In this document: piece after piece, positions 5,997 through 36,228 of the stretch | Numbering within the stretch: the first letter of the stretch is position 1 | Layout of the letters: each line of letters starts with the position of its first letter | Assembly (NCBI GenBank): GCA_003158875.1 | Contig: PMLK01000089.1 | Location: forward strand, 79,724-116,356 | DNA: 36,633 bases | From: Chloroflexota bacterium | Lineage (GTDB): Bacteria; Chloroflexota; Limnocylindria; Limnocylindrales; CSP1-4 | Direction of reading: 5' to 3' | Translations under genes and position numbers: made by a program | Notes under the pieces: generated by a model | Seen by the model: the letters and a program-made list of their open reading frames with translations, nothing else | Told to the model about the DNA's origin: nothing | The model's database searches: none

Positions 5997-7085
5997 GTGA
6001 AACTGCCGTTCCAGCCACCGATCGAGCCCATGCTCGCCAAGTTGACCGAAGCGATCCCGACCGGCGAGGGCTGGCAGTACGAACCCAAGTGGGATGGATT
6101 TCGAGCGGTCGTCTTTCGCGACGGCGACGAGGTCTTCATTCAGAGCCGGGACCTCAAGCCCCTCGATCGCTACTTCCCGGAGTTGCCGCCGGCGCTCAAG
6201 GCCGCCCTTCCGGATCGCTGCGTCCTGGACGGCGAAGTCGTGATAGTCGGCCCGCACGGTCTCGACTTCGACTCGCTTCTTCTGCGCATCCACCCCGCCG
6301 CGTCGAGGGTCAACATGCTGGCCGCCGAGACCCCGGCCTCGTTCGTGGCCTGGGATTTGCTGGCATTCGACGATCGCGATTTGCGCGGCGTTCCCCTGGG
6401 TGAGCGCCGGCAGTTGCTCGAACGAGCGCTCGCGGGCGCCGAGCCGCCGGTACACCTGACGCCAGCCACTGCCGATCCCGCCACTGCCGCCGACTGGTTC
6501 AACCGATTCGAGGGCGCGGGCCTGGACGGCGTGGTGGCCAAGCGTCTGTCGGAGCCGTACATGCCGGGCAAGCGAGGCTGGTCCAAGATCAAGCATGCCC
6601 GCACCGCCGACTGCGTCGTGGCCGGTTTTCGCTGGCACAAGAACGGCCCGGGCACCATGGTGGGGTCGCTGCTGCTGGGCATCTACGACGCCGCGGGCCA
6701 TCTCAACCACGTCGGCATTACGTCGAGCTTCACCAACGAGAAGCGAGTGGCGCTCGTGGAGGAACTGGCGCCTCTGCGGGTCGGCGCCCTCGACGGACAT
6801 CCTTGGGCAGAATGGGCGGAGTGGGAAGCCGCGGCCCGGGCCGGCGGCCAGCGCATGCCCGGGGCCCAAAGTCGCTGGAACCGCGATCGCGATCTGACGT
6901 GGGAGCCGCTGCGGGCGGAACGGGTCTGCGAAGTCGCGTACGACCATCTGCAAGGCGATCGCTTCCGCCACGCCACCACATTCGTCCGCTGGCGGTCCGA
7001 CAAGAGTCCGTCGGACTGCCGTTACGATCAGCTCGAAGTGACCGCCCCGTTCGAACTGCAGGCCATATTCGGCCGCCAGGGCTAG
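5997..7085 (+). CDS. ATP-dependent DNA ligase (LigC/LigD ligase-domain type)
   Basis: Joins DNA nicks or ends using ATP, 362 residues, matching stand-alone LigC-type ligases. The adenylation motif is EPKWDGFRA with nucleophile K31. The domain continues with motif III (FVAWDLLAFDD), motif IV (LDGVVAKR) and motif V (GWSKIKHART). The C-terminal OB-fold starts near residue 205 (DCVVAGFRWHKNGPGTMVG). All catalytic motifs are intact. The neighbouring convergent gene encodes a LigD-type polymerase, so both probably act in end joining or gap repair. No Ku gene is visible in this window. The start follows from the TATAGT-N6-GTG layout. The stop overlaps the polymerase gene stop in CTAG (7082-7085). 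Confidence 0.93.
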   Translation: MKLPFQPPIEPMLAKLTEAIPTGEGWQYEPKWDGFRAVVFRDGDEVFIQSRDLKPLDRYFPELPPALKAALPDRCVLDGEVVIVGPHGLDFDSLLLRIHPAASRVNMLAAETPASFVAWDLLAFDDRDLRGVPLGERRQLLERALAGAEPPVHLTPATADPATAADWFNRFEGAGLDGVVAKRLSEPYMPGKRGWSKIKHARTADCVVAGFRWHKNGPGTMVGSLLLGIYDAAGHLNHVGITSSFTNEKRVALVEELAPLRVGALDGHPWAEWAEWEAAARAGGQRMPGAQSRWNRDRDLTWEPLRAERVCEVAYDHLQGDRFRHATTFVRWRSDKSPSDCRYDQLEVTAPFELQAIFGRQG

Positions 7086-16691: not shown

Positions 16692-17058
16692 CGATGAACC
16701 CCTATCTGCGTCTTGTAACTGTGTCGGTGATCGGATGCAAGCAGTCTAGTCCTGGGCGGCATTGCGGCCCGAGACCCCATACGGGTGGGGGATCTCCCGA
16801 TACGTATGGCTCCGGCGACAGGGACGATTGGCGTCATGCAACACGGCCGGCACCACATACGATCCACGAATGCGCTCACTTCGACGACCGTCGGTTGCGA
16901 TTGCCGGCGCCACGGCATGGTGCAGTGCGAGGGGACACGAAGTGGTGCGTACACGCGACGCCCGTACTTACGTATGAGTGGCCCGGCGGCATTGGGGAGG
17001 TAGTCTCGCAACACGTTCGGAGGGGTCAGCTTGGACCCCGAGAGCGTGAGGAGGCTGA
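16692..17058. other. Divergent intergenic region
   Basis: This stretch of 367 bases separates the MFS gene from the tandem-domain protein gene. I see no convincing gene. It holds a 6-bp hairpin GGGGTC-AGCTTG-GACCCC (17022-17039) about 20 bases before the rightward start codon, in what would be the 5' leader, and a TAGTCT (17001-17006) that could act as a -10. Neither is strong enough to call. Confidence 0.4.
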
Positions 17059-17613
17059 GTGCTCGTCCCGTTTGTCGGGTACGCGTTGGGTCACCGTCTC
17101 ATCGGTCGTGTCGAGTGCGATGGTGGGCGGATGGCCGAATTGCTCGATCGGGTCGATTCGATCGTCGTCCACGAGGCGTACGTCGAGGCCTTCACCGACG
17201 ATACGGTCACGAATCTGGGCGCGTTCGCAGTCGATCGCTCGAGCCTGTTTGCCGTCGAGGCTGTGGATGCCGTCGAGGCTGTGGAGGACGTGTACGGCCG
17301 GCGAACGTTCCCTCAGCCACGTCCTTCCGTCAACCGGCAGGTGCGTGGCCACAGACTGCAGATCCAGCTCGGCCCGTACAGCGCTCTGGGTCTGGTCGAT
17401 GCTTCTCCGAGCGAGCTATCTCAGCCCCTCCAGGCCAGCGGTAGCATGATCCCACTACACCAGGCCACGATCGGATTTGCCGCCCGGGCTGGAGTTCAGC
17501 TGCGCGACGTCGGCACGCTTCTGGTGAATCGGGAGATGATCGATTGGGTCCGAGCGAACGACGACGACGCCTCCGCCTTCACCGGCTTGCCCGTTCATGC
17601 CGACCCCAGCTGA
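17059..17613 (+). CDS. Hypothetical protein with two copies of a small domain
   Basis: A 184-residue soluble protein with no signal peptide and no named family I am certain of. It appears to contain one domain twice. Copy 1 (about 10-70) runs from GHRLIGRV through VVHEAYVEAF to LGAFAVDRSSLFAVEA. Copy 2 (about 105-170) runs from YSALGLVDAS through IPLHQATIGF to VGTLLVNREMIDWVRA. The shared pattern is an L-x-G-x-V strand, an Arg/Ser-Leu helix, a short H/D-A strand and a final V/L-[D/N]-R strand. The 272-residue protein encoded beyond the hydrolase gene shows the same pattern twice. The GTG start has GAGGAGG close upstream. A role linked to the hydrolase is only suggested by position. Confidence 0.7.
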   Translation: MLVPFVGYALGHRLIGRVECDGGRMAELLDRVDSIVVHEAYVEAFTDDTVTNLGAFAVDRSSLFAVEAVDAVEAVEDVYGRRTFPQPRPSVNRQVRGHRLQIQLGPYSALGLVDASPSELSQPLQASGSMIPLHQATIGFAARAGVQLRDVGTLLVNREMIDWVRANDDDASAFTGLPVHADPS

Positions 17614-17678
17614 CGCCGCGGGGTACCATCGCTCTCGTTCGTGGCAATGATCCGAACTCGATCTCGAGGGGCGCGTAG

Positions 17679-18494
17679 ATGAGCACACTCAGGGTCGCTC
17701 TCGTACAACTGGCAGCGGACCAGGATGTGGCTGCCAACGTGGACCGCGCGGTGGCTCTCATCCGTGAGGCGGGCGAGTCCAAGCCCGGGTTGATCGCCTT
17801 GCCAGAGATGTTCCAGTACCGCGGCCCGCTGACCGGTTTTCGCGAGTCGGCGACGAAGCTCCCCGGCTCACTGACGCAGCCGTTCGCTGCGCTGGCCCAC
17901 GAGCTCAACTGCTGGCTGCTCCTCGGCAGCCTGGCCGAGCGCTCAACGGACCCCCTGCGGCCGTTCAACACATCGGTGCTGCTTGATCCGGCCGGCCGCA
18001 TCTCCGCTACGTACCGGAAGCGACATCTCTTCGACGTCTCGATCAAGGACGGTCCTTCTGACCAGGAATCGGCCCGGATCACGCCCGGCGACACCAGCGT
18101 CGTGGCGCTGATGGAGGGGTTGGCCCAGGAAGTGGACGTTCGCCTCGGGCTCAGCATCTGCTTCGATCTGCGCTTTCCGGAGCTTTATCGCGAACTCGCC
18201 GCCGACGGCGCCGTGATCATGGCCGTTCCCGCCAACTTCACCGAGACCACCGGCCGCGATCACTGGGAAGTCTTGCTGCGAGCCCGCGCCATCGAGAACG
18301 GGGCGTTCGTGATCGCCCCCGCTCAGTGCGGCATCGGTGCCGGCGTGCCGACACATGGCCGCAGCATGATCGTCGACCCGTGGGGAACAGTCGTCGCCCA
18401 GGCGCCGGACGGGCCCGGAGTGGTCGTAGCGGACCTGCGTCTGGAGAAGGTCGTCGAGGTCCGCCGGCAGCTACCGACTCAGCCCTCGCGCTGA
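17679..18494 (+). CDS. Carbon-nitrogen hydrolase (nitrilase superfamily, Nit-like)
   Basis: Cytoplasmic amidase of the nitrilase superfamily, 271 residues, closest in layout to Nit1/Nit2 omega-amidase-type enzymes. The catalytic triad is visible: E43 in IALPEMF, K114 in YRKRHLFD and C161 in SICFDLRFPELY. Further family runs are HWEVLLRARAIENGAFVIAP and GRSMIVDPWGTVVAQA. Nit-type enzymes hydrolyse deaminated glutathione or alpha-ketoglutaramate; the true substrate here is unknown. ATG start with GAGGGG about eight bases upstream; a TACCAT near 17621 may be the -10. It lies between two genes for tandem-domain proteins and converges on the second, 25 bases apart. Confidence 0.92.
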   Translation: MSTLRVALVQLAADQDVAANVDRAVALIREAGESKPGLIALPEMFQYRGPLTGFRESATKLPGSLTQPFAALAHELNCWLLLGSLAERSTDPLRPFNTSVLLDPAGRISATYRKRHLFDVSIKDGPSDQESARITPGDTSVVALMEGLAQEVDVRLGLSICFDLRFPELYRELAADGAVIMAVPANFTETTGRDHWEVLLRARAIENGAFVIAPAQCGIGAGVPTHGRSMIVDPWGTVVAQAPDGPGVVVADLRLEKVVEVRRQLPTQPSR

Positions 18495-18519
18495 GCGGCG
18501 CCCGACATCACTCGGCGCC

Positions 18520-19338
18520 TCAGGCCGCCCCAGACCGGCGCATCTGCTCCGAATCCTCTTCGTCTCGGGCCGAACTTCCGGCCGGCGAGGTCGAGTCGTC
18601 GAGCACGGTGACGATCTGTTCGCGGTTGATCAGGGCAAACGGGTAGCGGCCCACCACCGCCGGGTCGGACAGCCAGCGAACCGTGATGTCCGTGATCGGC
18701 AGGAAGTGAGGGTCGGGCGTCTCCAGGAACTGGGAGATCGAACCGTACGCCACGAGGTGGATGGTGCCCTTGATGACGTATCCGGGAGTGACGATCGAGA
18801 CCCGCGTCCGCTGCTTCTGCACGACCGGGGCTCCGGGGCGGGCTTGGCGGACGGGATTCTTTTCGGCGACCAGGATGACCTGGTTGAGCCTCACCCAGAG
18901 CGTGCCTTTGCGATCGTCCTGAGCGGGCGCCCGTGTCTGGCCCAGATGGACGTGCCACGCGTCCTGGACCTGGACGAAGCCCGACTTCATGTTCAGCCAG
19001 TCGGACAGCCGATCGAACTGGCCCGTGCTGATACCGCCGGAGATCTCGAAGCCGTCGCCGAAGACCTCGACCTCCTGGGTGGTCCCGGTGGGTTCCTCGC
19101 TGGCGCCGATCAGCCAATCGTTGCCGGCCGGCCCCACGGGTGAACCGAGCGTGCCCCAGACGGGGTCGAATCCGGGAGGCGTGTCGAATCCGCCGTCCTG
19201 GCGACCGCCGTTCGGATCGCCCAGTCGAATCATGGGTGAAGCACCGATCAGCCCGCCCGGGCCGATCACGAGGTCGGGATCGAACTCGGTGCTATCGGTC
19301 TGGCGCGCCCCCCCGAAGAACCCGGGTCGTCCAGCCAT
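18520..19338 (-). CDS. Hypothetical protein with two copies of the same small domain
   Basis: A 272-residue protein. The first 90 residues are Gly/Pro-rich and probably disordered (MAGRPGFFGGARQTD). Two domain copies follow. Copy 1 (about 95-165) contains FEISGGISTG, RLSDWLNMKSGFVQVQDA and LWVRLNQVILVAE. Copy 2 (about 185-250) contains YVIKGTIHLV, ISQFLETPDPHFLPITDI and FALINREQIVTVLD. The pattern I/V-x-G-x-I, R-L/I-S-D/Q-x-L, F-x-x-[I/V]-x-D, then [V/I]-N-R-x-x-I-x-x-V matches the protein encoded at 17059-17613. The linker in copy 1 is basic and polar. A short acidic tail ends the protein. Function unknown; the shared domain is inferred by eye. Confidence 0.72.
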   Translation of the reverse strand: MAGRPGFFGGARQTDSTEFDPDLVIGPGGLIGASPMIRLGDPNGGRQDGGFDTPPGFDPVWGTLGSPVGPAGNDWLIGASEEPTGTTQEVEVFGDGFEISGGISTGQFDRLSDWLNMKSGFVQVQDAWHVHLGQTRAPAQDDRKGTLWVRLNQVILVAEKNPVRQARPGAPVVQKQRTRVSIVTPGYVIKGTIHLVAYGSISQFLETPDPHFLPITDITVRWLSDPAVVGRYPFALINREQIVTVLDDSTSPAGSSARDEEDSEQMRRSGAA

Positions 19339-19628
19339 TTCCGTCTCTAAGTAGCATCAACTAGGTGCGTCCCTGCACCCACCTGAGTAATCGGCAGCCC
19401 GCTTCGGGAAGTGAACTCGGGACGGTGAGCAATAGGTTTCGGAGGCAGCCGTAATCGAATTGTGTGCCCTTCCCTGTCAGGCAACTATGGCCCACGAGGG
19501 GCAACTCGATCTGCGGCGGTCGTCTAGGCGTAATGGCCTATCTCTAGTGCGGACCCTGGTCTTGCCGCGAGCTGCCTCGAATCCGGCGTCGCGGCCCCCG
19601 GCGGATCAGCGGTGACGCGTCGCGCCAC

Positions 19629-21107
19629 TCAGCCTTCGTCGTCTGGGGGTTCGCCGGGCAGCGAAATCGTGAACGCGGCCCCGACATCCTTCCGGGCCGG
19701 CTCGAGACGTAGACTGCCGTCCATGGCGATGAGCAGCTGGCGGGAAACGTAGAGCCCGAGGCCGGTTCCGTCGCCGCTCGTGCGCTCTTCGCCACGCGTG
19801 AAGCGTGCGAACAGCCGCTGCCGATCCGACTCACTCACGCCGGGGCCGTGGTCGGCGACCGTCACTTCAAGCTGATGTTCAGCCTCGTTGGGGCGGATCT
19901 CCACTTCCACTTTACCGTCGCGGCCGCCGTACTTGACCGCGTTGTCCAGGATCGCCCACAGCACCTGATCGACCTGATCTGGATCGCCAACCGCCAGCCA
20001 GCCACGAGAGGCGTCGTGCATCCGGAACACGACCCCGGTGGCGTTGAGCGCCTCCCAGGTCTTCCGGACGCGTGGTCCCATGGCCATTACTTCGGCATCG
20101 GCGCGCAGGGCTCCGGCCTCCAGGCGCGTCATCGTCAGGAGCTGGCGGACAAGTCGGGTCAATCGGTCCGCTTGCTCGGAAACGATCTGGAGGCGTCGGT
20201 CCGCGCCCGCCTCTTCGGATGACGTCCGGATCTGATCGACATAAGCGCGAATGCTCGTCAGCGGCGTCTGCAGGTTGTGGCTCACGCCGCGCAGAAACTC
20301 ATCCTTGGCCGCGTCGAGTTCCAGCAAGCGCGAGTTTTGGCGCTCGATCTGGCCGAACAGCTGGGCATTGCGCAGCGCTACTCCAACCTCGCTCGCGAAC
20401 AGGTCGAGCAGGTCCTGATCCGCACGCTCCCAGCCGCGTGTCGCGGGTAGATGCCCGGCCAACAGGCCGAGGGTCTCGCGGCCGGCCTTGACGGCGGCGC
20501 GGACGGGGCGCGGCATGCCCGGGATCAACTCTTCCGGCGCCACATCATCGGGGTCCTCAGGCTGGATCGAGCAGTCGATAAGACCGAAGATGCCGCTCGC
20601 GTCGGTTTCGGCGCGCGTCGCCAGAGGCTCGACCCCGTCGGCCGGGTTGTAGCCAGCCACGGCCACCAGCAGTGCCGCCAGCTCCCGGTTGCGGCGCGCG
20701 GCTTCGGCCGCGATCCTGTTGTGGCTCTCGGCAAGCCGAGCCAGCTCGTCGTCGCCGCCGATGTGAATCGGTCCGCTGGGCTCTCCGGCGGCGACGCGCT
20801 CGACCGCGATGGTGATGCGCCGCAGGGGCGAGGTCATGCTCGATCCCGCCACAGCCGCCGCGAGCAGGCCAAAGAACGCCGCCGCGACCAGGGCCGCGAG
20901 AAGCAACGTGCCCATGACGGCGGCGTTCGAGTAGAGCTTCGCCACCATGACGATGCCGCCGAACGCAGCGAGTGGGACGACCGAGGCGGCGATCAGGCTG
21001 GCCGTGAGCACGACTCGAAATGACATCCCGAAACCGTGGTCCTCGTTGGATCCGGCCGTAACGTGTCCGGCCGAAGTGTCGGCCGACTTCTCGGGCCTGT
21101 CAGCCAT
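19629..21107 (-). CDS. Sensor histidine kinase (HAMP-GAF-HisKA-HATPase)
   Basis: Membrane sensor kinase of 492 residues, partner of the response regulator just upstream. Two membrane helices (about 31-55 and 64-88) are separated by only a few residues, so there is almost no external domain and the signal is probably sensed in the membrane or cytoplasm. A HAMP linker (88-145) and a GAF-like domain (about 145-255, ending FASEVGVALRNAQLF) follow. The H box is VSHNLQTPLTS with phospho-acceptor H277. The ATPase domain has the N box DNAVKYGG, G1 DHGPGVS and G2 GTGLGLYVS. I chose the ATG at 21107, which overlaps the regulator's end by eight bases; a TTG at 21122 is possible. Confidence 0.93.
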   Translation of the reverse strand: MADRPEKSADTSAGHVTAGSNEDHGFGMSFRVVLTASLIAASVVPLAAFGGIVMVAKLYSNAAVMGTLLLAALVAAAFFGLLAAAVAGSSMTSPLRRITIAVERVAAGEPSGPIHIGGDDELARLAESHNRIAAEAARRNRELAALLVAVAGYNPADGVEPLATRAETDASGIFGLIDCSIQPEDPDDVAPEELIPGMPRPVRAAVKAGRETLGLLAGHLPATRGWERADQDLLDLFASEVGVALRNAQLFGQIERQNSRLLELDAAKDEFLRGVSHNLQTPLTSIRAYVDQIRTSSEEAGADRRLQIVSEQADRLTRLVRQLLTMTRLEAGALRADAEVMAMGPRVRKTWEALNATGVVFRMHDASRGWLAVGDPDQVDQVLWAILDNAVKYGGRDGKVEVEIRPNEAEHQLEVTVADHGPGVSESDRQRLFARFTRGEERTSGDGTGLGLYVSRQLLIAMDGSLRLEPARKDVGAAFTISLPGEPPDDEG

Positions 21108-21807
21108 CGTCTCTCGCCGCAACGAGCTTGTAGCCGAGACCCCGGGCCGTCAGGAGGTGGACCGGGTGATCGGCATCGACTTCGATCTTCTGGCGGAGGC
21201 GGCGCATCGACACCCAGACATACGACGGATCGGCCTCCTCTGTGTCCGTCCAGCCGCGCGACAGGAGCGTTTCTGTGGCGACTATCTCGCCGAGATTGGC
21301 GGCCAGCACATTCAAGAGACGAGCCTCAGTAGGGGTGAGCTGGACTTCCTTTGCGGCTACCGTGGCCGCCCGGCGATACAGGTCGAGAGTTAGATTCGGT
21401 CCGAGCACTAGCGACTGGCGCGGTATCCGATCTCCCAGCCGGCTCAGGACGCGCTGGATTCTGGCCCGTAGCTCCGGGTAGTGGTATGGCTTGGTGACGT
21501 AGTCCTCGGCCACTTCGTCGAGCAGCCTGGCCTTGCTGTCGGCGCTGTCTACCGCCGAAAGAACGATGATCGGCAAATCCGCGTCGGCCTTGATCTGGCG
21601 CGCCAGGGCCAGGCCATCGACGCGCGGCATCATCAAGTCGAGCAGGATCAAGTCCGGCCAGCCCGACTCGAGCCTGTGGACAGCCTCCTGACCGTCTCGA
21701 GCTGTGGCGACCTCGTAACCGTCCTCGCTGAGCTGTTCGGACAGCACCACGAGCAGACTCGGGTCGTCGTCGACCAGCAGGATCCGTCGCGGTCGGTGGT
21801 CCATCAT
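21100..21807 (-). CDS. OmpR-family response regulator
   Basis: Response regulator of 235 residues, first gene of the pair with the sensor kinase. Receiver domain: acidic cluster D13-D15, phospho-acceptor D57 (DLILLDLMMP) and the lysine in AEDYVTKPYHYPEL. This last run lacks the usual GAD before the DY and has YHY in place of F. The C-terminal winged helix (about 135-230) contains LTPTEARLLNVLAANLG and DPSYVWVSMRRLRQKIE. The partial regulator at the right edge has a closely similar effector domain (DPAYVWVTVRRLRQKLE), so the two are paralogues and may bind similar sites. ATG with a GGGGGAG-type site upstream. Confidence 0.94.
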   Translation of the reverse strand: MMDHRPRRILLVDDDPSLLVVLSEQLSEDGYEVATARDGQEAVHRLESGWPDLILLDLMMPRVDGLALARQIKADADLPIIVLSAVDSADSKARLLDEVAEDYVTKPYHYPELRARIQRVLSRLGDRIPRQSLVLGPNLTLDLYRRAATVAAKEVQLTPTEARLLNVLAANLGEIVATETLLSRGWTDTEEADPSYVWVSMRRLRQKIEVDADHPVHLLTARGLGYKLVAARDDG

Positions 21808-22797: not shown

Positions 22798-23996
22798 TCC
22801 GGGCGTGCTCCGGTGGCTCGTCGTTCGCGGACGGCGACGCCGATCTCCACGAGGCGCGCGAGCCTCTCGCCGGCCGCGGCAACGAGTGGCTTGGCTCGGC
22901 TCATCGCGTCGTCGAGCGGCATCGGCCCGTCGACGACGGGCACGGCTACGGCTCCGGCCGCGGCCAGCGCCGCCACACCCTCGCGAGTGGCCGCTCCACC
23001 GACCGCGAGACAGGGCACGCCGGCCACGGCCGCGCGCCTGGCCACACCCAGGGCCGTCTTGCCGTATGCGGTCTGATCGTCGATGCGGCCCTCGCCAGTG
23101 ATTACGAGGTCGGCCGTCGCGAGCCGCTCGTCGAAGTTCGTCTCCTCCATCACGACGTCCACGCCCGGCACCAGTTCGAATGAGTGCAGGTGTCCAGCGA
23201 TGCACATCAAACCGAATCCGGCGCCGCCGGCCGCGCCCGCTCCGGGCAAGTCGCGGGCCGTTGTCCCCGAGGCCTTTTCCAGTAAGTCGGCGAAGCGCCC
23301 GAGCCATGCCTCCAGGGCGGCGACATCCTCCGGCCAGGCGCCCTTCTGCGGACCGTACGTGGCCGCGGCGCCATGGTCGCCGAGGAGTGGATTGGTGACG
23401 TCGCAGGCGACTCGAAAGTCGACCTCGCGAAGCCGGATGTCGAGGGCCGCCAGGTCCATCGCGACGAGATCGGGAATCGGACCGGGCAGCGCTTCCGCCG
23501 GATCGCTGCGATACCAGGCGCCCAGGGCCCGCAGCAAGCCCGCCCCGCCGTCCGTTGTGGCACTGCCGCCGACTCCCAGAAGCACTCGGCGGACCCCGGT
23601 GTCCAGAATGTCGGCCAGAATTTCGCCCGTTCCTTCGGTGGTGGCGATGAGTGGGCTGCGTGGCTCGCCCTCGGGCAGTCGGGACAGCCCCGAAGCCTCC
23701 GCCAGCTCCACAGCCGCGCGCTGTCCGTCACTGGAAAGGAGCCACCGCGCCGTCAACGGCCGTCCCAGCGGATCGTGGGTCGAGCACTCCTGCCACTCCC
23801 AGCCGCCCGTTTCGGCGATCGCAGCCAGCGTTCCCTCACCGCCGTCGGCAAGAGGAGCCAGTATCAACTCGTCGTCGGGGCGGGCGGCCGCCCAACCTTG
23901 CGCCAGCGCGTGGGCGACTTCCACCGACGTCAACGAGCCCTTGAACGAATCGGGGGCGAGTACCACTCGGAGCGGCCCAATTCCGCGGCCGGTCAT
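22794..23996 (-). CDS. Glycerate kinase (GlxK/GarK family)
   Basis: Phosphorylates D-glycerate with ATP, 400 residues, about the family's normal length. Recognisable runs are VVLAPDSFKGSLTSVEVA at the N-terminus, LADGGEGTLAA, the phosphate loop GVGGSATTDGGAGLLRALG and the conserved TNPLLGDHGAAATYGPQKGA. A later acidic motif is ITGEGRIDDQTAYGKTALGVA. E. coli members make 2-phosphoglycerate, so direct supply of 3-phosphoglycerate to the upstream GpgS is not certain. It overlaps by ATGA both the GpgS fusion gene (23993-23996) and the repair gene after it. In context it probably returns glycerate, for instance from glucosylglycerate breakdown, to central metabolism. Confidence 0.94.
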   Translation of the reverse strand: MTGRGIGPLRVVLAPDSFKGSLTSVEVAHALAQGWAAARPDDELILAPLADGGEGTLAAIAETGGWEWQECSTHDPLGRPLTARWLLSSDGQRAAVELAEASGLSRLPEGEPRSPLIATTEGTGEILADILDTGVRRVLLGVGGSATTDGGAGLLRALGAWYRSDPAEALPGPIPDLVAMDLAALDIRLREVDFRVACDVTNPLLGDHGAAATYGPQKGAWPEDVAALEAWLGRFADLLEKASGTTARDLPGAGAAGGAGFGLMCIAGHLHSFELVPGVDVVMEETNFDERLATADLVITGEGRIDDQTAYGKTALGVARRAAVAGVPCLAVGGAATREGVAALAAAGAVAVPVVDGPMPLDDAMSRAKPLVAAAGERLARLVEIGVAVRERRATGARPE

Positions 23997-26032
23997 CGGC
24001 CTCTAACCTCGGCGGGGGTTGCGTCGTCAGGCGCCGCCACGCCAACCGGCGCCACTGCACCGCCCTCCGCCTCTCCGTTGGCCGCGTCTCCGGTGGCGGC
24101 GTCTGAAGGCGCCGCACTCGTTCCGCTGCGCCGGGCCAGATATTCGGGGATCGTGATCATCGGCGGCCGCTCATGATCGGCCAGCTCGATGACCTCGAGA
24201 CTCAGCTTGCCGCCACCCGAGCGCGGCAGCTTCATCGTCGAGCCCAACTCGGCGAACAGGCGGGTCTTGCGCTTCTGTTCGAGTCGCTTGACCACGGCCT
24301 GGATGATGACGAAGCTCATCCGTGAGAGGCCTTCGAGGTCCTGGTTGCGATGGATCCGGCGTTCCAGGTCTACCTGACCCAGGCCCTCCAATCCAACCTG
24401 CTCGGAGACGTCGATGAGGTGGCCTATCTCGACGGCGTAGCTGGTGAAGAACGGAATCGCTTCGAGCAAGGTCCGGCGTCCCGCGTACTCACCTGCCAGC
24501 GGCTGGATCAAGCCCGACAGCTCCGGGTAGAAGAGGTTGATCAGGGGTCGGGCCACGAGTTCCGTAACTCTGCCGCCGCCGCCTTCCTTGAGCACGCCGC
24601 CTTCTACGATCGGTCGACGGTAGTAGCCCTTGACGTACTGAATGCGCTCCTCGGCGATCAGCGGCCCCACGGTCCCGTAGACCATACGCGGATGCCAGTT
24701 TCGGACGTCCGTATCGCACCAGACGACGATGTCGCCGCTGGTCTCGTACAGGCTCTTCCACAGGGCCTCGCCCTTGCCGCGAAAGCTGCCCAGACCGGGG
24801 AGCACCTTCGAGTGAGTCGCCACTCGCACGCCTTCGGCGGCCGCGATCTCGCACGTGGCGTCGTCTGAGTCGGAGTCCATGACCAGTATCTCGTTGACAA
24901 GGGGATGTCGCTCCATCAAGTCCCGCCGAGCGCGCCGCACGATTGCCCCGATCGTCTCGGCCTCGTTCAGCGTCGGCAGAACGAGACTGACGGTCAGCCC
25001 GGCCTGCTCCTTGAGCCTGACAAGGCGGTCGAGATCCGCGAATTCGCGATGATGGAAGTTAGACTCGCCGAACCACCGTTCCACCCGCAGCGGAACCTCG
25101 CGCATGTCGTTGGCGGCTCGCTCGGCCGCGGCGAGTGTCTCCGCGGTGCTGGCCAGCTGGGCGAACGTCGCCTCGCCGATGGGCGTGCCCGTCTTGACGA
25201 CGATCACCGTCCTGGCGGATTGAGTCGCGATGGCCTCGGGTAGCGCCCCGAACAGGAATCCCCCCGCGCCGTCGGCCGAGGTTCCGGAGGGCGGAGCAGA
25301 CGCGCCCATGATCACGACGTCCGTCGTGTTTGCGACCCGCAGAATCTCGTTGCGGACGTTGGCCGCCTCGGAGACCACCTTCTCGATGTCGCCCTCGGCG
25401 TGCTGGCGAATGAAGTGCGAGAGAGCCCGTTCTGTCTGACCGCGAATCGCATCCGTGACGCCGGTCGGCATCAGGTGGAGGACCTTGATCCTGGCTCCGT
25501 TCTGGCGAGCCAGAGCGTCGGCGAAACGCAAGGCAAGTTCGGCGTGCGGGCCACCTCGAACCGGGACCAGGATGCTCTGGACTTCCGACGGGCCGCCTTG
25601 CTTGACGACGGCGATGTCGCAAGGTGAGTCGCGGACGACCTCGTCGATGGTGGAGCTGAACACGGGTGCTTCGGCCCCGGGCTTTGGCTGTGTCGGCTTG
25701 CCGCCCCAGCCGAACACGATCAAGTCCGCATCCAGCTCCGTGGCCGCTTCCAGGACACCCTCCGCCGCGCGGCGTCCGATGCGGACGATCGGGTGAATCG
25801 TGGTGCCGTCCGGTGCGAAGTCCAGGACACGCTGCAGCAGCCGGCGAGCCTGACGGGCGCGCGTGGCTCCGTCGGAGAGCGGCGTTCCCTCGGGCACCTC
25901 CACGATACCCAGCACGGTCAGGATGCCGTCCTTGCGGTCCATCAACGCTGCCCCGACCCGAACCAGCTCCTCGGCCGTATCTGGATTCGCAACCGGAATC
26001 AGGACTCGGGACGGCAATGCCTTGCGAATCAT
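23993..26032 (-). CDS. gpgS: USP-USP-glucosyl-3-phosphoglycerate synthase fusion
   Basis: A 679-residue fusion. Two universal stress protein domains (about 8-145 and 150-282; second-domain run VVIMGASAPPSGTSADGAGG near the nucleotide loop) precede a GT81 glycosyltransferase domain (about 345-585). GpgS transfers glucose from an NDP-glucose to 3-phosphoglycerate, giving glucosyl-3-phosphoglycerate, a precursor of glucosylglycerate and of actinobacterial methylglucose polysaccharides. The match to mycobacterial GpgS is strong: LVLPTLNEAETIG, GKGEALWKSL, the DXD motif D440-T-D442, GGGRVTELVARPL, QPLAGEYA, YAVEIGHLIDV and H561 in the HRN run. The USP ATP loops look degenerate. The Ala/Gly-rich tail is disordered. 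Overlaps by ATGA at both ends couple it to a second glycosyltransferase and to glycerate kinase. No phosphatase gene is nearby. Confidence 0.93.
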   Translation of the reverse strand: MIRKALPSRVLIPVANPDTAEELVRVGAALMDRKDGILTVLGIVEVPEGTPLSDGATRARQARRLLQRVLDFAPDGTTIHPIVRIGRRAAEGVLEAATELDADLIVFGWGGKPTQPKPGAEAPVFSSTIDEVVRDSPCDIAVVKQGGPSEVQSILVPVRGGPHAELALRFADALARQNGARIKVLHLMPTGVTDAIRGQTERALSHFIRQHAEGDIEKVVSEAANVRNEILRVANTTDVVIMGASAPPSGTSADGAGGFLFGALPEAIATQSARTVIVVKTGTPIGEATFAQLASTAETLAAAERAANDMREVPLRVERWFGESNFHHREFADLDRLVRLKEQAGLTVSLVLPTLNEAETIGAIVRRARRDLMERHPLVNEILVMDSDSDDATCEIAAAEGVRVATHSKVLPGLGSFRGKGEALWKSLYETSGDIVVWCDTDVRNWHPRMVYGTVGPLIAEERIQYVKGYYRRPIVEGGVLKEGGGGRVTELVARPLINLFYPELSGLIQPLAGEYAGRRTLLEAIPFFTSYAVEIGHLIDVSEQVGLEGLGQVDLERRIHRNQDLEGLSRMSFVIIQAVVKRLEQKRKTRLFAELGSTMKLPRSGGGKLSLEVIELADHERPPMITIPEYLARRSGTSAAPSDAATGDAANGEAEGGAVAPVGVAAPDDATPAEVRGR

Positions 26033-33088: not shown

Positions 33089-34834
33089 TTAGTTGATCGG
33101 CACGAGGTGGACCGGGTTGCCATTCACGTTCACGGACCAGGTGGTGGTGTCGTTGCCGCCGCTGACGTTGTACTGAACCTGCCACCAACCGCCTTGCCAG
33201 AGTCCGGGGTCCGGCGTTCCTGAGGCGACGATGGGAGCGGTGCCGCCGGCCGAGCCGTAGCTACTGGGCAATGGGATCGTAATCTCGATCCAGGTGTTGT
33301 TGAAGCTGCTCTTGGTGCTTCCGCTGACCGTCTTCGCGACCGTTATCATCGACCGGTTTGAGCCGGAGCACGTGTCCGAATTCCCAGAGGCGCAGTTGCC
33401 GTTGTTCACGCGCACGCCGGCGGTGTTGTAGTTATACGTCGTGTAGCTGAAGTTGCTGACCACCGTAGGGCTAGTCGGGTTCAAGGTACCTGCGTCCGGG
33501 CTGAGTATCTGGATGAAGCCAGCTGTGGAGTCGCCGACGTCGAAGAGGTCGATGGTCAGGGTCTTGCCGGCGCCCGTCTCCCGATCCACCTTGGCCAGGT
33601 AGAACTGCTGGAGAACGCCGTTTCCGGACAGGTTGTTGTAGACGGCCATCTTGTCGTAGCCGTAGACGGTGGGGGAGCCGCCGCCGGTCACCATGATGGC
33701 GAACATGTTTTCCGCGTTGACGTCTGCGTTCTCGGTTGAGTCGGTGGGCTTGGTTGTGGAGACCTCGACCTCGTAGGTTCCGGCTGCCAGGCCGCTCGCC
33801 AGCGTCCACCACTTGTTGTGATAGGCATCGCATGCCCCGCTGCCGTTTGCCCCTCCGTCCGTCCCCTTCTGATTCTCGAAGGTGGAGCCTGAGAACGTGC
33901 CTGGAACTATCGTCCAGCCGTTCTTGTTGAGTGGAACGTTGTGGGTGTCCAGGAGCGTGTAGTAAGTCGACACCGCGTTATACGTGCTGTTGACCTGGGC
34001 GATCCAGTGGTCGCCCGTGCCGTAGTACGTAGAACCGTTGACTTTGTTCTCGCAGAATCCCGGATCGAATATCTGGACACTACCGCCCGCTGGAAGCACG
34101 GCCGTGTAGTAATAGCCGTTGGGGTCATAGGAAACGTTGTTGTTCATGTCGACCGTCCAGGTGGTAGCAGGAGTGTTGTTCGCGGGCGAGTAAGCGTCGC
34201 CGTTCTCCTGGTTCCCGCCTTTCGTGATGACTGCTCCCCATGCGCCCAGGCTTGAGAGCTTGGTCCCACCGGAGGTACCGGCCGTCGTAACGCCGCTATC
34301 GCCGGTCCCCGCCGAGTTGCATGCCGGCGCGGTGACGCCGGATTGGACCAGGCACCCCACGCCCATGTAGCTCAGGGGACTTCCCATGGGGACGGGCATG
34401 ATGTAGGCCGCCCGGGCCGATCGAGACACGGTCCACTGGTTGATCCCGAAAAGCCTGACGAAGAAGGTCTGAACCGGTGCAGTGATGGTTACGTCCAGCT
34501 GGCGATTGTCCGTCGGGTTTGGGGACACGGCAACCGTGAGGCCGGAGCCGCTCGTGTAGCCGTTTGACGTCGCGACGGCATCCGCACGCGACGTGGCGGT
34601 CGTCAGATCGCCGGGCATGTACACGACGCCGGCCATGGCCGCGGCATCAGCCGCGCGCTGAATCTGCAGGCCGTTGCGCCATGCATATGTCACGTCGATG
34701 GCAATTCCAACGAGACCGATCAGCACCGTGAGCATCAGGGCGAAGATGACGATGATCTGGCCCGCCTCTTTGACGCCCACGTCTATCGGGTCCGCGCCGG
34801 TGCCGATGGGGATGCGGATCTTGGGCAAGCTCAT
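33089..34834 (-). CDS. TadG-like secreted/pilus-associated protein
   Basis: A 581-residue protein whose N-terminus matches the TadG/TadE membrane-anchor region. A Gly/Gln run (EAGQIIVIFALMLTVLIGLVG) starts the helix, followed by the conserved IDVTYAWRNGLQIQRAADAA of pilus-assembly TadG proteins. From about residue 120 to the end it is a large exported domain rich in Ser, Thr, Asn, Gly and Tyr with beta-strand character (for example FDPGFCENKVNGSTY, and WTLASGLAAGTYEVEV). There are few Cys residues. It may be a surface beta-sandwich domain. Its ATG overlaps the second TadE stop as ATGA (34831-34834). No pilin, prepilin peptidase or ATPase gene is present in the window. The gene is followed by a strong terminator. 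Confidence 0.85.
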   Translation of the reverse strand: MSLPKIRIPIGTGADPIDVGVKEAGQIIVIFALMLTVLIGLVGIAIDVTYAWRNGLQIQRAADAAAMAGVVYMPGDLTTATSRADAVATSNGYTSGSGLTVAVSPNPTDNRQLDVTITAPVQTFFVRLFGINQWTVSRSARAAYIMPVPMGSPLSYMGVGCLVQSGVTAPACNSAGTGDSGVTTAGTSGGTKLSSLGAWGAVITKGGNQENGDAYSPANNTPATTWTVDMNNNVSYDPNGYYYTAVLPAGGSVQIFDPGFCENKVNGSTYYGTGDHWIAQVNSTYNAVSTYYTLLDTHNVPLNKNGWTIVPGTFSGSTFENQKGTDGGANGSGACDAYHNKWWTLASGLAAGTYEVEVSTTKPTDSTENADVNAENMFAIMVTGGGSPTVYGYDKMAVYNNLSGNGVLQQFYLAKVDRETGAGKTLTIDLFDVGDSTAGFIQILSPDAGTLNPTSPTVVSNFSYTTYNYNTAGVRVNNGNCASGNSDTCSGSNRSMITVAKTVSGSTKSSFNNTWIEITIPLPSSYGSAGGTAPIVASGTPDPGLWQGGWWQVQYNVSGGNDTTTWSVNVNGNPVHLVPIN

Positions 34835-35451
34835 GGGGTCGGTGGCTCCATTGCCATAACTGTTTGATCGACCATGGTGATTTGGCCGCTGCTGAAGGCT
34901 GTGAGAATGGCTCCCAGGGGCGTAATGAACTTGTACGTGTAGGTAATCCGGACGCCGATCTGCTGGGCCGGAGCCGCACCATTGCGCTGCCATGTGTTCC
35001 AGGTGCCACCCGCCTGGGGCTTGAAGTCAAGGTATTGGGCGGGCGACGTGCCCGGAACCTGCGGCCCGGTGTGGCCCGGCGCTGGGATCCAGGTGTTGAC
35101 CGTTGCAGACATCGATCCATTTGTCGTAAGGAAGATCTCGATCTTCTGAACCTGCGAGATGTTCACCGGCGAGCCGACCGAGATCAAGACGCCTTCAACG
35201 GCGGCGATGATCTGAGGATCCACGCTGTCCGAAGCTACGGATTCCAGGTGAGTTCCGCTTCGGTCGACGCCGTCGACGAGTTCCGAGCCAACCCGCGCTC
35301 CCTGGCGAGTCGCGGTCACGATCGAGGTGTTGTGATTGATCGCGAAGCCCATCTCGAGCATGCCCAAGATGAGGAACATCATCACCGGAAGGATTATCGC
35401 GAACTCGACCAGAGATTGACCGCGCTTGGACCGGAAGCGGCGCAGCTTCAT
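34831..35451 (-). CDS. TadE-like pilus assembly protein (second copy)
   Basis: A 206-residue protein with the TadE signature near the start: KRGQSLVEFAIILPVMMFLI, one membrane helix, then GMLEMGFAINHNTSIVTATRQGARVGSE. The rest is an exported domain with beta-rich runs. TadE proteins are pilin-like subunits or assembly factors of tight-adherence systems. Coupled on both sides by ATGA overlaps: with the first TadE gene (35448-35451) and the TadG-like gene (34831-34834). Confidence 0.9.
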   Translation of the reverse strand: MKLRRFRSKRGQSLVEFAIILPVMMFLILGMLEMGFAINHNTSIVTATRQGARVGSELVDGVDRSGTHLESVASDSVDPQIIAAVEGVLISVGSPVNISQVQKIEIFLTTNGSMSATVNTWIPAPGHTGPQVPGTSPAQYLDFKPQAGGTWNTWQRNGAAPAQQIGVRITYTYKFITPLGAILTAFSSGQITMVDQTVMAMEPPTP

Positions 35452-36023
35452 TGGATCGGCTCCAGACGGCTGGTGCTGGTCTGCACGAACGTTGGCGGAG
35501 AGGATCCCAGGCCAACCAGGTTCGGCAGCGGAGTGACCCATGAGTATTTGTAGGTGATCGTGACGCCGATCCACTGCACGCCGCCGCAGACGCTGGTGTC
35601 CACGGTGTTGCACCGACTCGTCTCCGTGTAGCCCTTGGCACCTGAGAGCTGGTAGGGGATCGTCACGGTGTTCAGCGTCCAGGATCCGTTTCTCGTATAT
35701 GTATCGGCGCCTTTGTTGGCTCCGGTCAGGTCTGTCTGGAATATGGAGACGGACTGGATCTGGTTCCGGTCTATTGGCGCACTCATGTCCTTCTCGACCA
35801 GCTGAAGGATGTAGAAGTCCGCGTTGGCCGTCTGGCCCAACTCGGATGCGTATTGGACCGCATCCTGAGCCGCGTCCGTGGTGCCGACTTTCACCACTAG
35901 CAAGAACGAGAACTCGCCGATTGCGACGACCAGGGTCATGAAGATCGGGATGATGAGCGAGAACTCCACGAGCGCCTGACCGCGTGAGCGGCGGCGCCTC
36001 GCTGTAGTTCTGCGTGATCTCAT
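35448..36023 (-). CDS. TadE-like pilus assembly protein (first copy)
   Basis: A 191-residue protein with the same layout: a very basic leader (MRSRRTTARRRRSRGQA), the TadE core RGQALVEFSLIIPIFMTLVV and helix, then an exported domain. It differs from the next gene in its exported part (GADTYTRNGSWTLNTVTIP, then two Cys in RCNTVDTSVCGG). First gene of the three-gene operon. The ATG at 36023 has GGGAG about four bases upstream. The operon's -10 is not certain; a TATGGT about 90 bases upstream is a weak candidate. Confidence 0.88.
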   Translation of the reverse strand: MRSRRTTARRRRSRGQALVEFSLIIPIFMTLVVAIGEFSFLLVVKVGTTDAAQDAVQYASELGQTANADFYILQLVEKDMSAPIDRNQIQSVSIFQTDLTGANKGADTYTRNGSWTLNTVTIPYQLSGAKGYTETSRCNTVDTSVCGGVQWIGVTITYKYSWVTPLPNLVGLGSSPPTFVQTSTSRLEPIQ

Positions 36024-36228
36024 ATCCCACTCCCAAAGTCCTTGGCTGTGAGCTGATCCCAGGCGTCTGAGACTACCGGCCGCTCCTTGCAGACACCATA
36101 ACCGAGACGGCCGCAGGGGACCTCTCACCAGTGGTTTCGGTGCTTTTGGTCCACTACGGTACCAATTGCTGCCGTTCCCTCGCGCATCGTCCTGCCTCAG
36201 TCCTGCCTCGCAGGGTAGCCAAAGGACG

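Follow-up and report, generated by a model that had tools for sequence, protein, structure and literature searches.

The window analysed here, a stretch of 36,633 nucleotides from an uncultured Chloroflexota bacterium, contains two genes, P1 and P2, on either side of a hydrolase gene, NIT, and next to P2 the genes of a histidine kinase (HK) and a response regulator (RR). Their positions, with those of the domains discussed below, are as follows.

17059..17613, forward strand: P1, a 184-residue tandem DUF6812, predicted Sm-like protein; open reading frame with a GTG start
17089..17268, forward strand: P1 domain a (residues 11-70), comprising beta2, the helix and beta3-beta5; from the secondary structure of the model and alignment A2
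17347..17562, forward strand: P1 domain b (residues 97-168), C-terminal LLVNREMIDWV; from the secondary structure of the model and alignment A2
17679..18494, forward strand: NIT, carbon-nitrogen hydrolase of the Nit branch (PF00795, E = 4.6e-58)
18520..19338, reverse strand: P2, a 272-residue tandem DUF6812, predicted Sm-like protein (PF20660, 7e-12, two stretches)
18592..18816, reverse strand: P2 domain b (residues 175-249), ending FALINREQIVTV; from the Pfam stretch 189-242 and the model
18856..19089, reverse strand: P2 domain a (residues 84-161); from the AlphaFold2 model and alignment A3
19629..21122, reverse strand: HK, histidine kinase HAMP-HisKA-HATPase_c (Pfam), directly upstream of P2 and co-oriented with it
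21100..21807, reverse strand: RR, OmpR-type response regulator, Response_reg and Trans_reg_C (Pfam)

An AGGAGG-like ribosome site lies just 5' of the GTG start of P1, and beta1 of P1 domain a starts ahead of residues 11-70. The first ~84 residues of P2 are acidic and modelled with low confidence. The reading frames of RR and HK overlap by 23 bases; a promoter and terminator scan of positions 16900-19800 found none.

Membership of P1 and P2 in DUF6812

P2 matches the Pfam family DUF6812 in two stretches with a score of 45.6 bits, against a gathering cut-off of 27.1. P1 alone has no Pfam match even when E-values up to 1 are admitted and stays below the DUF6812 gathering score, but 35 of its 42 aligned relatives match the family, so that the search of DUF libraries recommended in the earlier note succeeds outright for P2 and only through relatives for P1. 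The Pfam model spans ~53 residues, versus ~70 for the domain as predicted here; the family has no stated function, and a literature search found no paper on it.

The earlier note, aligning four segments by eye, had proposed that both proteins carry two copies of one small domain ending in a V/I-N/D-R strand. This ending recurs in three of the four copies (FAVDRSSL, LLVNREMI and ALINREQI) but fails in the first copy of P2 (WVRLNQVI); the family helix motif, R-L-[ST]-D-x-[LI]-N, is degenerate in P1 domain a (RMAELLD). The reading frames of P1 and P2 were confirmed at the positions listed above, and both genes, like NIT, are conserved. A close ortholog of P1 (E < 1e-40) is present in 15 of the 20 same-genus genomes sampled, and identities among same-genus orthologs are 49-61% for P1 and 48-64% for P2. 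With profiles of close orthologs none of the four segments is significantly similar to another (the best pair, P1b-P2b, has an hhalign E of 0.002 and a probability of 13%), because those profiles are shallow; likewise, HMMER found zero matches between the P1 orthologs and the P2 orthologs when these were compared directly, because the sequences are too alike within each set. The result changes with deeper sets, consisting of the first-round relatives of each protein (39 for P1 and 46 for P2, with zero sequences in common): hhalign then aligns both domains with a probability of 97.6% and E = 3.7e-12, and crosswise sub-optimal hits are obtained for P1b-P2a (E = 7.5e-4) and P1a-P2b (E = 0.017).

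The alignment of these disjoint profiles, the DUF6812 matches and both AlphaFold2 models agree in placing the same tandem domain in the two proteins, and the common family and tandem architecture are direct results of the computations. Judged by Pfam's own cut-off for P2 and by profile comparison for P1, the two are two-domain members of DUF6812 (PF20660) that appear to have diverged anciently. In a tree of 110 tandem members a deep, supported split has P1 and P2 on opposite sides, and the pair is therefore not the product of a recent local duplication.

Predicted fold of the domain

AlphaFold2 models built with family alignments reach a mean pLDDT of 83.5 (P1) and 76.4 (P2), the cores of the domains exceeding 90. 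Both models show one order of elements, beta-beta-alpha-beta-beta-beta, in two copies per chain, as expected from the earlier claim. When the two models were run against the PDB with Foldseek, the 50 top matches of each were almost exclusively Sm or LSm proteins (archaeal and eukaryotic Sm proteins in the case of P2); the output does not assign a match to one or the other of the two domains. Probabilities were mostly 0.99-1.00, and the better matches had TM scores of about 0.6-0.66 by target length; the best E-values were modest (1.9e-3 and 1.2e-2), and none was below 1e-3. Since nearly all the best matches are of this one type, the domain is most likely a predicted Sm/LSm-like small beta-barrel, present as a fused pair in each chain of P1 and P2.

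The Sm-type barrel is thus a feature of the predicted models. At the level of profiles, the single-domain members of the family align to Sm with an hhalign E of 0.004, the best value obtained, and a score of 20.8, compared to a maximum of 16.1 among 60 column shuffles, which is suggestive; no Sm1/Sm2 or Hfq sequence profile was recognized, and neither P1 nor P2 nor their relatives have a Pfam match to LSM or Hfq. No sequence in the PDB matched the P2 profile, and a viral fold library returned weak, uninformative matches to small phage proteins. Given the modest Foldseek E-values and the suggestive profiles, we regard the Sm assignment as strong but predicted.

One alternative takes the fold at face value and makes the tandem proteins RNA-binding post-transcriptional regulators in Hfq's place, with three tandem chains forming a six-domain ring. 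Hfq is indeed missing from the genomes searched (0 of 41 relatives and 0 of 152 good-quality Chloroflexota genomes), there are 2-8 DUF6812 paralogs per same-genus genome, and the conserved Asn of the helix motif and the last-strand [VI]-N-R might loosely occupy the places of the Sm1 and Sm2 motifs. Such a role is nevertheless unlikely in our view: both proteins are acidic (pI 4.9 for P1 and 4.85 for P2), the helix motif is unlike Sm loop 3, and the link to Hfq or LSM does not extend to a sequence match. Moreover, cyanobacterial Hfq, in its complex with EbsA and the pilus ATPase PilB, illustrates that an Sm protein can serve such an ATPase; RNA substrates of this Hfq had not been identified when the work was reported (PMC8092324).

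It is also conceivable, if rather improbable, that the domain represents another type of small beta-barrel, SH3-like or otherwise, acting as a structural or ligand-binding module, which Foldseek placed among Sm proteins from general similarity alone. E-values of only 1e-3 to 1e-2 with a TM score of about 0.6, the extra helix between beta2 and beta3, a sequence link to Sm that is not significant and a case built from models would all accord with this; but two separate models drew nearly all of their 50 best PDB matches from Sm-type structures, and not from SH3, OB or PilZ folds, and the order of elements, with a short turn ahead of beta5, is Sm-like.

Gene order in the genus and across the phylum

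In all 14 complete same-genus loci RR, HK and P2 lie on one strand and face P1 and NIT on the other, so that P2 is co-oriented with the two-component genes and convergent (tail to tail) with NIT. The gap between HK and P2, ~170-560 bp, allows a separate promoter for P2. A sister paralog clade of P2 likewise adjoins a kinase, in the order RR-HK-DUF (L083, L103), and an OmpR-type regulator adjoins DUF6812 in another Chloroflexota family (L150, L154). Overall, wherever a kinase, regulator or secretion ATPase gene and a DUF6812 gene are no more than 1.5 kb apart, the two share a strand (49 of 49 cases, which are not independent, many being orthologs). A third paralog closes a run of RR, hybrid histidine kinase, PAS-EAL protein, sigma-70 factor and DUF6812 protein (L082:1016-7264, contig C98 of genome G000), in which the sigma factor gene overlaps the tandem Sm-like gene.

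The earlier note had correctly recognized the gene between P1 and P2 as a Nit-type hydrolase. With the Nit/deaminated glutathione amidase branch NIT shares PF00795 and the motif C-F-D-L-R-F-P-E around the catalytic Cys; deaminated glutathione amidases are its best NCBIfam equivalogs, but it falls far below their cut-offs (158.7 of 500 and 144.2 of 355 bits). The further suggestion of a functional set around this gene, under which P1 and P2 would regulate or scaffold NIT, is consistent with the constant order in 14 of 14 loci and with the short P1-NIT gap, which measures 65 bp in the window and ranges from 24 to 109 bp in six relatives. Such a set nevertheless appears very improbable: P2 and NIT are convergent; in 8 of the 14 loci (L066, L067, L068, L070, L072-L075) an opposite-strand HD-domain gene (~190 residues) stands between P1 and NIT; NIT lies directly against HK, with no P2 in between, in one same-genus genome (G002, L213) and in loci from other genera (L214, L229, L231); and P1 relatives from other genera have different gene neighbourhoods. 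The conserved HD-domain gene is absent from the window. The abutting NIT and HK genes suggest that this genus acquired P2 between them, loss of P2 elsewhere being the alternative; NIT probably stands between P1 and P2 by accident of gene order, and the partner found consistently with P2 is the two-component system rather than the hydrolase. P1-type paralogs adjoin PlsY, PanE and TPR genes, and P1 most likely represents a separate, older DUF6812 branch that has no fixed partner.

The gene order and its phylogenetic extent are likewise direct results of the computations. DUF6812 was found in 88 of 400 sampled Chloroflexota genomes, about a fifth, with single-domain members (~100 residues) in other Chloroflexota families; a scan of the genome collection with a narrow alignment yielded close relatives alone, each of them labelled a Chloroflexi MAG. 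The family also occurs in Thermus composti, a control genome. We compared 20 DUF6812 loci from 19 other families with 20 regions chosen arbitrarily from Chloroflexota genomes. A T2SSE-family (CpaF-like) ATPase occurs within ~6 kb in 7 of the 20 loci and in none of the 20 controls (Fisher p = 0.008), versus 7 and 4, respectively, for HK or RR (p = 0.48). As the latter are not enriched phylum-wide, the signalling link is a trait of certain branches. The CpaF-like secretion ATPases adjoin single-domain members; none is found near P1 or P2.

Some further observations concern the surroundings of these genes. Single-domain DUF6812 genes are followed by a gene for a ~460-residue protein that has no Pfam match (L149:1726-3108, L162:1714-3129; the L149 protein contains ...IEETGLGKGFLTDLVLKVIYF), and in wider stretches (L170, L176, L182) the secretion ATPase comes next after it. 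Tad pilus genes (TadE-like, TadG-like) are present in the window at 33092-36036 on the reverse strand, about 14 kb from P2. In several genera (L094, L097, L098, L100, L102) the genes of one DUF6812 branch come after an ATP-dependent DNA ligase gene and share its strand; the window, too, has a ligase gene, at 5997-7082. A single open reading frame at 23996-26032, reverse strand, combines universal stress protein domains (two stretches) with a glycosyltransferase family 2 domain.

Proposed role and relation to known systems

Taken together, we find it reasonably probable that P1 and P2 carry a tandem pair of DUF6812 Sm-like domains, that P2 is an accessory of RR and HK, that P1 belongs to a separate branch, and that NIT is a mere neighbour. 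Coming third in the RR-HK-P2 signalling cluster, P2 would most likely encode a cytoplasmic accessory of the two-component system, whose tandem Sm-like module, perhaps ring-forming, may bind a partner, protein or RNA, and thereby adjust the output of the kinase or of the regulator. Taken by itself the signalling role is a tentative proposal, to which we give somewhat less than an even chance, and ring formation and a ligand are likewise inferred. For the family at large, the models and gene neighbourhoods suggest that DUF6812 proteins most likely serve signalling and pilus systems as adaptor or regulatory modules with an Sm fold. A bolder scheme would make DUF6812 the Chloroflexota counterpart of LSm/Hfq, with paralogous tandem chains (P1, P2 and others) forming homo- or hetero-oligomeric pseudo-hexameric rings that carry two-component and pilus-motor output via RNA or protein binding; we consider it a long shot. 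A Pfam family that had no assigned function acquires a predicted fold together with a role that can be tested. Since the phylum is nearly Hfq-less, single-domain and tandem Sm-like proteins with ties to kinases, regulators and secretion ATPases would raise the question of whether they are signalling and pilus adaptors or RNA chaperones.

Among known systems, the best structural matches are Sm/LSm proteins and the archaeal SmAPs (AF-Sm1, 1i4k/1i5l; Pyrococcus abyssi Sm, 1h64), with which P1 and P2 have a predicted five-stranded beta-barrel in common; unlike these, P1 and P2 have two barrels per chain and a helix between beta2 and beta3, are acidic, and lack a detectable Sm sequence signature. 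The association of an Sm fold with a pilus ATPase in the cyanobacterial Hfq-PilB-EbsA complex parallels the location of single-domain DUF6812 genes beside CpaF-like genes, although DUF6812 has no Pfam Hfq match and its link is one of gene neighbourhood; the cyanobacterial case is a functional parallel, and is not evidence of homology. A precedent for Hfq-annotated proteins in appendage systems is also provided by FlgV/BB0268, formerly annotated as Hfq, which was found to control flagellar assembly (PMC11607428).
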